Below, piece by piece: positions 10,391 through 50,450 of a stretch of DNA of 64,000 bases. The stretch's first letter is position 1. Each line of letters opens with the position of its first letter. The notes beneath the pieces were generated by a model. The model worked only from the letters and a program-made list of their open reading frames with translations, ran no database searches and was not told the DNA's origin. Location: positions 1 to 64,000 of the forward strand of contig ONBR01000009.1 of the NCBI GenBank assembly GCA_900316105.1, in the 5' to 3' direction. This DNA comes from an uncultured Olsenella sp. GTDB lineage: Bacteria; Actinomycetota; Coriobacteriia; Coriobacteriales; Atopobiaceae. Made by a program: the position numbers and the translations under genes.

Positions 10391-10440
10391 TAGCCATAGG
10401 GGGTACTCCCTTATCCATAAGGGAGTACCCCCTATGGCTA
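10391..10440. repeat. Perfect 50-nt palindrome
   Basis: A 24-bp arm (TAGCCATAGGGGGTACTCCC..., 10391-10414) and its exact reverse complement (10417-10440) are separated by only CC. The core AGGGGGTACTCCCTT also occurs in the palindrome at 49785-49853, so this is a dispersed family. It lies downstream of uvrB and may end its transcript, though no T-run follows. Confidence 0.8.
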
Positions 10441-33357: not shown

Positions 33358-33421
33358 TGTGCCGAAAGGGGTAGCCCCTTTCGGCACATTTTGTGTCGCA
33401 GGAGGCTACCCCCCTGCGACA
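33358..33421. repeat. Two stacked hairpins, terminator/REP-like
   Basis: TGTGCCGAAAGGGG (33358-33371) pairs perfectly with 33375-33388 around TAG and is followed by TTTTGTG. A second hairpin TGTCGCAGG (33394-33402) with CCTGCGACA (33413-33421) follows, and a third half-copy (CCCCCTGCGACA) comes next. They separate the small gene (+) from the end of phoR (-) and probably terminate both. Confidence 0.75.
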
Positions 33422-47596: not shown

Positions 47597-49687
47597 ATGG
47601 CAACAGACAAGGTCAGCACCGAGTACGGGAGCCTGGTCTTCACCGACGCAGACATGCAGGAACGCCTGCCCAAGCCCGTATACAAGGAGCTGCGTCAGAC
47701 CATCGACGACGGCAAGCCCATAGACCTGGGCATCGCCAACGCCGTGGCTCACGCGATGAAGGAGTGGGCCCTGGAGCACGGCGCCACCCACTTCACCCAC
47801 TGGTTCCAGCCCCTCACCGGCATCACCTCCGAGAAGCATGACGCCTTCATCAACCCCAAGGACGACGGCACCGTGCTGATGGCCTTCTCGGGCAAGGAGC
47901 TCGTCCAGGGCGAGCCCGACGCCTCCTCCTTCCCCTCCGGCGGCCTGCGCGCCACCTTCGAGGCACGCGGCTACACCGTCTGGGACCCCATGAGCCCCGC
48001 CTTCATCAAGGACGAGGTCCTCTGCATCCCCACGGCATTCATCTCCTACACCGGCGAGGCCCTGGACAAGAAGACCCCGCTCCTGCGCTCCGAGGTCGCC
48101 CTTGAGGAGCAGGCAAAGCGCATGCTCAAGCTCTTTGGCAAGGAGCCCAGGCGCGTCGTCACCACGTGTGGCCCCGAGCAGGAGTACTTCCTGATCAAGG
48201 AGGAGGACTACGAGGCACGTCCCGACCTCATCCTCACCGGCCGCACCCTCTTTGGCTGCCCGCCCGCAAAGGGCCAGGAGCTCGAGGAGCACTACTTCGG
48301 CGCCATCCGTCCCACCGTCAACGCCTTCATGAAGGAGGTCGACGACGAGCTGTGGAAGCTGGGCATCCCCGCAAAGACCAAGCACAACGAGGTCGCCCCC
48401 TCCCAGCACGAGCTTGCCCCCATCTTTGAGCAGGGCTCCCTGGCCGTCGATGACAACCTCCTGACCATGGAGAAGCTCAAGCTCCTGGCCACCCACCACG
48501 GTCTTGCCTGCCTGGAGCACGAGAAGCCCTTTGACTACGTCAATGGCTCCGGCAAGCACGACAACTGGTCCCTGTCCGCTGACGGCGAGAACCTCCTGGA
48601 GCCCGGTGCCAATCCCGAGGACAACCTCCAGTTCCTGGTCGTCCTGGCCTGCCTGGTCGCAGCGGTCGACGAGCACGCCGACCTCATGCGTGCCAGCGTC
48701 GCCTCTGCCGGCAACGACCACCGTCTGGGCGCAAACGAGGCGCCTCCCGCGATCATCTCCATCTTCCTGGGTGACGCGTTGAGCCCCGTGGTCGACGCCC
48801 TGATCAAGAAGGAGCGTGCCGAGAGCCAGAGCCGCGAGGAGATCGACCTGGGCGTTCCCGCCATCCCCAACGTCCTGCGCGACAACACCGACCGCAACCG
48901 CACCTCTCCCTTTGCCTTCACCGGCAACAAGTTCGAGTTCCGCATGTGCGGCAGCCAGCAGAACCTCTCGGACCCCAACGTCGTCCTCAACACCGCCGTG
49001 GCCGAGCAGTTCGACCGCTTCGTCCAGTATGTTGCCGACCGCTCCGACGAGGACTTCACCAAGGTTGCCGTCCGCTTCGTGCGTCACACCTTCCGTGACC
49101 ACCAGCGTGTCCTCTTTGACGGCAACGGCTACTCCGAGGACTGGGAGAAGGAGGCCGAGAAGCGCGGCCTGCCCAACCTCAAGAGCACGGCAGACGCCCT
49201 CCCCTGCCTGGTCAAGCCCGAGAACATCGCCCTCTTCGAGAAGTACGGCGTCCTCACCGAGTCCGAGTCCCGCGCCCGCTACATCTCTGCGGCCGAGCAA
49301 TACGCCAAGCTCCTCAACATCGAGGCCAACACCATGTCCTACATGGTCCGCCACATGTACCTGCCTGCCCTGATTGACTACTCCGGCGACCTGGCCACCG
49401 CCATCGCCACAAAGAAGGAGATCGGCATCACCGGCAAGGCCGAGCAGGACCTGACGCAACAGATCACCGATGGCATCGACAAGATCTACGAGACCGTCGA
49501 CCTCCTGGAAAAGAAGAACGCCGAGGCCCAGGCCGTCGAGGACTGCGGCGAGCAGGACACCTTCTATCACGAGGAGGTCATCCCCGTGATGGACGACCTG
49601 CGTGCCGTCGTCGACGCCATGGAGAGGCTCTGCGGTCACGACTGGTGGCCCGTCCCCAGCTACAACAGGATGCTCTTCTGGGTGTAA
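47597..49687 (+). CDS. glnN: Type III glutamine synthetase
   Basis: A 696-residue GSIII, the long dodecameric form that joins ammonia to glutamate with ATP. Signature stretches: [40 protein letters not shown]/metal site [35 protein letters not shown]-like [21 protein letters not shown] and [22 protein letters not shown] 47597 follows AAAGGA; upstream open frame to 47450 is non-coding. A strong terminator follows. Together with gltBD it completes GS-GOGAT. Confidence 0.97.
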
Positions 49688-49710: not shown

Positions 49711-49746
49711 AAGGCGCCCCGCACTCGCATGTGGGGCGCCTTCTTA
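49711..49746 (+). terminator. Terminator of glnN
   Basis: AAGGCGCCCC (49711-49720) pairs with GGGGCGCCTT (49733-49742) followed by CTTATT, 23 bp after the stop. Confidence 0.9.
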
Positions 49747-49759
49747 TTCCGCAGGACGG

Positions 49760-49865
49760 TTATCCACAGGGGGTACTCCCTTTTGGCATTATCCACAGGG
49801 GGTACTCCCTTTTGGCTTTAAGCCAAAAGGGAGTACCCCCTGTGGATAATGCCCCCTGTGGATAA
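49760..49865. repeat. Long palindrome with four perfect DnaA boxes
   Basis: Two direct copies of a 28-nt unit (49760-49787, 49789-49816), each starting TTATCCACAGGGGG, are followed by an inverted copy. The central part 49785-49853 is a perfect palindrome with 34-nt arms and one central T. TTATCCACA, the DnaA-box consensus, occurs at 49760-49768 and 49789-49797, and its complement TGTGGATAA at 49841-49849 and 49857-49865. It lies between the convergent glnN and mntP genes. The GGGGGTACTCCCTT core is shared with 10391-10440. Confidence 0.9.
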
Positions 49866-49868
49866 TGC

Positions 49869-50450
49869 CTACAGCCCCAGAAAGGCCTTGAGTCCGATGA
49901 TCACCAGCACGATGCCGCCCACGACCTCGGCGCGGTCCCCCAGGAGCCTGCCCAGCTTGCGTCCCAGAAAGAGGGCGACGATACAGCAGGCGAAGGTGGT
50001 GAGGCCGATGACCGTCACGGCAAAGGCCAGGTCCACGTCCTGGGCTCGCAGGGAGAAGCCAACGGCAAAGGCATCGATGGCGGTCGCAACGGCCTGCACC
50101 AGAAGCTGGGAAATCCTGAGCTTCTTTACGCTGCCGTCATCCTCAAAGCCCATCTGGCCCTCCTCGTCGGAGCGTAGGGCCTCAAGGCCCTCCTTGATCA
50201 TGTTTCCGCCGATGAAGCCCAGGATGATCAAGGTGACGATGCCCGAGTAGGCCTCTATGATCTGGGCGGCGAGGTTGCCCAGGAAGTAACCCAGGACAGG
50301 CATCATGGCCTGAAAGAGACCAAAGAAGACGGGCATCAGGATGAGCTTGCGCTTGCGTTCCCTGGCGTAGACGAAGGTGTTGGACACCGTCACGGCAAAG
50401 GCGTCCGCAGAGAGGGCAATGCCCAAAAGCAGTATCTCGAAGGCGCTCAA
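49869..50450 (-). CDS. mntP: Manganese efflux pump MntP
   Basis: MntP (193 aa) exports Mn(II). Six helices are visible, and the duplicated acidic motifs typical of the family are LLLGIALSADAFAVTVSNT near the start and LVQAVATAIDAFAVGFSL in the second half. The start is TTG at 50450, which has AAAGGAG 6 nt upstream; the open frame continues for about 29 codons upstream without signals. I looked for a yybP-ykoY manganese riboswitch in 50451-50620 and did not see one. Confidence 0.92.
   Translation of the reverse strand: MSAFEILLLGIALSADAFAVTVSNTFVYARERKRKLILMPVFFGLFQAMMPVLGYFLGNLAAQIIEAYSGIVTLIILGFIGGNMIKEGLEALRSDEEGQMGFEDDGSVKKLRISQLLVQAVATAIDAFAVGFSLRAQDVDLAFAVTVIGLTTFACCIVALFLGRKLGRLLGDRAEVVGGIVLVIIGLKAFLGL

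Follow-up and report, generated by a model that had tools for sequence, protein, structure and literature searches.

The intergenic stretch between a glutamine synthetase gene and mntP on contig ONBR01000009.1 of an uncultured Olsenella sp. raises the question of whether a tight group of perfect DnaA boxes marks a site at which DnaA acts or belongs to something else. The first-pass annotation had reported four exact copies of TTATCCACA in 106 bp, two per strand, and all four are in place, at 49760-49768 (+), 49789-49797 (+), 49841-49849 (-) and 49857-49865 (-). They account for every copy in the window, that is, the whole 64,000-nucleotide stretch of DNA analysed, and all fall within 49760-49865, compared to a mean of 0.11 and a maximum of 1 in shuffled sequence. 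Treating the boxes as four separate ones, this comparison makes the finding look more surprising than it is, since the boxes are not independent: each is the arm of a copy of one repeated unit, TTATCCACA-GGGGGTACTCCC-TTTTGGC.

Anatomy of the palindrome

The left neighbour of the site is a gene for glutamine synthetase type III (47600-49687, +; start unsettled; PF12437, PF18318, PF00120) and the right neighbour is mntP, encoding a manganese efflux pump (50537 to 49869, -; PF02659). This convergent pair encloses a perfect palindrome of 69 nt (49785-49853, no strand) consisting of 34-nt arms and a 1-nt centre (34+1+34). Two direct REP-like units of 29 nt, TTATCCACA-GGGGGTACTCCC-TTTTGGCA at 49760-49788 (+; unit 1, direct repeat D1, also in the family listing) and TTATCCACA-GGGGGTACTCCC-TTTTGGCT at 49789-49817 (+; unit 2, D1), are 97% alike. 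They are followed by an inverted 28-nt unit at 49822-49849 (-; unit 3, inverted repeat I2, 100%) and a 16-nt partial unit, CCCCCTGTGGATAATG, at 49852-49867 (-; direct repeat D2) that carries the fourth DnaA-box match. The palindrome corresponds to units 2 and 3 standing face to face. Thus, the palindrome between convergent genes and the repeated 28-nt unit containing the boxes, both described in the first-pass annotation, were recovered, the latter as one inverted 28-nt copy and two direct 29-nt copies. Folded as single-stranded DNA, 49750-49875 gives -54 kcal/mol (z -14). A search of Rfam at a loose threshold matched mostly microRNA models of plants and animals, with scores short of the gathering cut-offs, which we put down to an artefact of the perfect hairpin.

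A dispersed repeat family with variable arms

Searching the assembly (2,136,165 bases in 42 contigs, 91.6% complete) for the core of the unit, GGGGTACTCCC, produced 116 copies, compared to 0 for the reversed control. In an analysis of the stretches fetched around core copies only, the 116 cores group into 57 clusters, of which 55 are extragenic, the other two being located one within an ORF and one at the edge of a contig, as judged by a simple codon-usage ORF caller written for the present analysis. The extragenic clusters are found between tandem (30), convergent (17) and divergent (8) genes. A cluster may consist of a solitary unit or of several, which stand in either orientation, some of them as direct neighbours; where cores face each other, the spacing is 21 or about 30 nt. 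The consensus single unit folds into an imperfect hairpin. The family therefore shows the hallmarks of REP sequences in BIMEs, namely a short imperfect palindrome at high copy number (116 cores), extragenic placement (55 of 57 clusters, by the simple ORF caller) and clustered units in alternating orientation. The constant GTAG at the stem foot was not seen in the family units, which have TATCC or GCC arms. The family has a second cluster within the window (10391-10440, no strand), with TAGCCATA arms and without an exact DnaA box. Besides this family, the genome contains a second palindromic family with the core GGGGTAGCCCC or a near form of it (L021:196-292, L016:723, L022:1091, L027:690 and window position 33368).

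The arms are looser than the core. TATCC occurs beside the core in 73 of 116 units, TATCCACA in 15 and TTATCCACA in 5; the commonest arms are TATCCATA forms, others being TATCCGTA, TATCCGCA and GCCAAAA forms. The outer 9-nt arms are nevertheless identical in 20 of 27 facing pairs (shuffled mean 4.4, maximum 10). Since facing arms match each other, what is kept is the palindrome, not the box: self-complementarity is maintained while the arm letters vary between clusters. Compensatory change would explain the arm matching, but so would inverted duplication or gene conversion. The whole genome has 9 copies of TTATCCACA (reversed control 5), 8 of which sit in three clusters of the family. The ninth, at C37:902 (L054:902-910, G000:C37), is the only one in the genome outside the repeat family. 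The box is thus an arm variant that coincides with a DnaA box and is incidental to the core-GGGGTACTCCC repeat. The first-pass annotation had named scattered copies with an unconserved box as the outcome that would speak against a DnaA site, and this is the pattern seen, with 5 of the 116 cores having an adjacent TTATCCACA; its own alternative, a repeat family carrying the boxes, proves right in substance, with 116 cores in 57 clusters. A search of the genome collection for box plus core gave a single match, in Actinopolyspora, which we set aside as within chance (about 3 expected, estimated from 20 fixed bases, 7 spacings and 257 Gb on both strands).

We compared the locus in four congeners. 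In G001, glutamine synthetase III faces mntP without repeat or box; in G003, similar sequence lies downstream of glutamine synthetase III, again without the repeat; and neither core nor box was found at the glutamine synthetase III locus in any of the four. The core in the form GGGRTACTCCC is present 120 times in the present genome versus 1-6 times in the congeners. The repeat-free congener loci and the low congener counts indicate that the copies arose recently compared with the genus, or else that they disappeared elsewhere. Separately, L020:2298-2781 (the end of G000:C18, in the present genome) and L080:266-750 (the start of G049:C54, from an organism of a different genus) share a stretch of about 480 bases without a difference, one repeat cluster included. 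Each lies close to the end of its contig, and the identity reflects either recent transfer or a binning error.

The very stable hairpin, the convergence of the flanking genes and the terminator-like calls within the repeat would suit a bidirectional terminator or mRNA-stabilising hairpin selected at this locus for the convergent pair. However, a separate GC-rich terminator-like inverted repeat (49711-49742, +; I5) already lies directly 3' of the glutamine synthetase gene, G001 has the gene pair without the repeat, and the greater part of the family is located between genes that are tandem or divergent. We therefore regard selection for such a role as unlikely, a secondary effect of the palindrome on transcripts being possible.

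DnaA boxes in the dnaA region

Contig C11 carries dnaA, followed downstream by dnaN and recF. TTATCCACA is absent from the 9-kb dnaA stretch of the present genome as well as from the dnaA stretches (5.5-5.8 kb each) of the four congeners. NTTTC[AG]ACA words occur in the five dnaA regions 2, 4, 4, 2 and 1 times, with 0.02-0.05 expected from resampled sequence, and may represent the DnaA box of the lineage, as suggested by a few sites picked after they had been seen. Their recurrence in the dnaA regions of the genus is found at L070:1545-5687 and in L125-L128. The DnaA recognition helix reads GGRSHATVKHS across the five genomes, except for GGRTHATVKHS in G004; that of E. coli DnaA is GGRDHTTVLHA.

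In E. coli, the regulatory loci datA, DARS1 and DARS2 each exist in a single copy, with their boxes in a conserved arrangement and with sites for IHF/Fis, and the present site resembles them in having DnaA boxes clustered in intergenic DNA. A titration or reactivation locus of this kind, at which DnaA would bind the four boxes and the locus would tune initiation, had been the other option of the first-pass annotation, and it would account for four exact E. coli-type boxes within 106 bp and for the concentration of the genome's TTATCCACA copies in three clusters. Yet the boxes of the present site form the arms of a dispersed repeat and are not conserved as a functional part, being present in only 5 of 116 units and missing, together with the repeat, from the congener loci. 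Furthermore, the dnaA-dnaN regions of the five genomes lack TTATCCACA and contain NTTTC[AG]ACA words instead, and the recognition helices read GGRSHATVKHS or GGRTHATVKHS. Taken together, these observations make a datA/DARS-like function most improbable.

Y1 transposases and related repeat systems

A PF01797 profile search of the present genome identified two Y1 transposases, on C28 and C24, and the core is absent from the fetched flanks of both genes. On the flanks of the C28 gene stand repeats of the GTCCC...GTCTC type, and GTGCCTGGCAC-type palindromes lie at the upstream end of the C24 gene. In L057:2440-3760 and L058:240-3760, the two Y1 genes are seen beside these palindrome families of their own, with further copies elsewhere. 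Either enzyme as the driver of the family would be a less simple solution, each adjoining a different palindrome family, with action in trans possible. A Y1 gene between two inverted copies of the repeat, as expected of RAYT-associated REPs, was not found in this genome; the assembly being 91.6% complete, the absence of the cognate transposase is not final.

The relatives provide the missing association. Using the Y1 protein of G074, whose gene has core-bearing inverted repeats on either side, we searched 140 genomes of the family and inspected the sequence around the top-ranking loci. A core identical or close to the present one (GGGGTACTCCC, GGGATACTCCC, GGGGGTACCCCC) stands on both sides of a Y1 gene in seven genomes (G074, G076, G128, G124, G081, G010 and G079), with arms that vary from genome to genome. 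In the tree, five of the core-flanked Y1 proteins fall into a nine-row clade (support 100/98); the clade statement rests on these five because the core-flanked genes L088 and L094 were missed by a motif filter and left out. The other four members, L089, L092, L093 and L096, have flanks with other cores or none found. The C24 and C28 proteins lie outside the clade, and no Y1 transposase of the clade was found in the present genome. As the two genes also adjoin other repeats, the cognate enzyme has been lost, is unassembled or has been replaced.

Core number follows the flanked transposase: the seven genomes contain 676 (G074), 84 (G076), 29 (G128), 48 (G124), 38 (G081), 189 (G010) and 43 (G079) copies. 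Counts are intermediate in G136 (26), G066 (22), G068 (18) and G069 (18), and low in the congeners G001 (2), G002 (1), G003 (1) and G004 (6) and in G062 (4), G071 (7), G111 (2), G104 (2), G123 (5) and G129 (2). This is an association and not an unbiased test, since the genomes were chosen with their flanks known, and the present genome departs from the trend, having 120 cores while no transposase of the clade was found in it. In G068 (L078:1143) and G069 (L079:1812), the core-bearing repeats form a pair with different arms, and the closest Y1 genes of these two genomes are flanked by another palindrome family.

Instead of a mobile repeat, an operator for a dispersed protein that binds double-stranded DNA, such as a nucleoid protein or global regulator, could also present a fixed 11-nt core, looser arms and many copies, and would be compatible with the failure to find a cognate transposase in the genome. 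However, multi-unit arrays of mixed orientation with matching arms fit a transposase-linked repeat, and the core is nearly absent from four congeners while flanking Y1 genes in seven relatives, leaving the operator distinctly unlikely.

We therefore consider it very probable that the site is one cluster of a dispersed REP family arranged in BIME-like groups, presumably spread by a Y1 transposase, and that the box is incidental. Observation provides the family, its dispersal and extragenic placement, the repeat-free congener locus, arms that match each other and, in relatives, the association of core and transposase. At the molecular level, the unit is a short imperfect palindrome, arm-GGGGTACTCCC-arm, able to fold on single-stranded DNA, and two units face to face give a larger hairpin, perfect at 49785-49853. 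A Y1 (HUH) transposase of the RAYT/TIRYT kind, its own gene flanked by the same repeat, most likely copies units into intergenic DNA. We infer that such an enzyme made the copies in the present genome, presumably recognising the folded core, and that its gene was lost or is missing from the assembly. Spread by a Y1 enzyme has to be weighed against the failure to find a clade member in this genome, whose C24 and C28 genes adjoin other palindrome families, the four clade members with other cores or none found, the scores of the Y1 proteins against the NCBIfam REP transposase model (51-55 bits, C24 and C28 included, under the cut-off of 80) and the unseen GTAG tag of classical REPs.

Among known systems, RAYT genes (TnpA-REP; E. 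coli, Pseudomonas, Stenotrophomonas) are flanked by inverted REPs, with extragenic copies dispersed in BIMEs and palindromy kept through changes (PMC2817692). The present family shares the high-copy, short imperfect palindromes, the extragenic clusters of mixed orientation, the Y1/HUH gene between inverted copies (in relatives) and arm changes that preserve palindromy, but differs in that the central GGGGTACTCCC is the conserved part, no GTAG tag was seen and the cognate transposase was not found in the same genome (PMC2817692). In REPINs of Pseudomonas fluorescens, the repeated unit is likewise a hairpin of two inverted REPs, whereas the present facing units are separated by only a few bases and can also be strung into longer arrays (PMC3116915, PMC8049555).

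The inverted repeats of TIR-associated Y1 transposases are partly self-complementary, some occurring as dimers or clusters (PMC3733652), and most of these enzymes are placed in TnpAY1 subclass 2.1 (PMC6006769). The tail at the C-terminus of subclass 2.1 proteins is similar to HTH domains or to the C-terminal domain of DnaA, and part of the class has a domain like the one with which DnaA binds its box (PMC6006769). The Y1 genes described here, whose proteins may have an HTH-like C-terminal tail and whose flanking repeats are inverted and partly self-complementary, resemble TIRYTs/TIRtrons (PMC3733652) and subclass 2.1 (PMC6006769), and the repeats similarly form dimers and clusters. In contrast, the core is GGGGTACT rather than the reported GGGGWSAS, which is shared by only some TIRs and so is not strictly defining, and the repeat number is high compared to families called moderately abundant (PMC3733652). 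No REP-like neighbours were found beside subclass 2.1 genes (PMC6006769), whereas here core repeats flank Y1 genes. The family can thus be placed among known systems, nearest to TIRYT repeats, from whose reported motif its core departs.

Such a tail invites the idea that the cognate enzyme reads the outer arm through its helix-turn-helix, in which case the likeness to a DnaA box would be shared recognition, not coincidence, tying repeat spread to replication initiation or DnaA supply. We consider this very unlikely. TIRYT transposases are expected to carry a Bac_DnaA_C, HTH_23 or HTH_28 domain at the C-terminus; in the G074 protein, HTH_23 gives a weak match below the cut-off at 220-246 (E 0.023, 15 bits).

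The incidental nature of the boxes removes a tempting lead towards a DnaA titration locus, and cautions that exact DnaA boxes called by consensus may not be the host organism's own. The analysis also adds a REP/BIME-like family of high abundance from a lineage in which the literature searched, with partial coverage, held no published account of such repeats. The present genome appears to harbour an orphan repeat population, and the transposase clade, whose repeats keep the core while the arms change between genomes, opens to experiment the question of whether its enzymes recognise the core and need the arms merely to pair.
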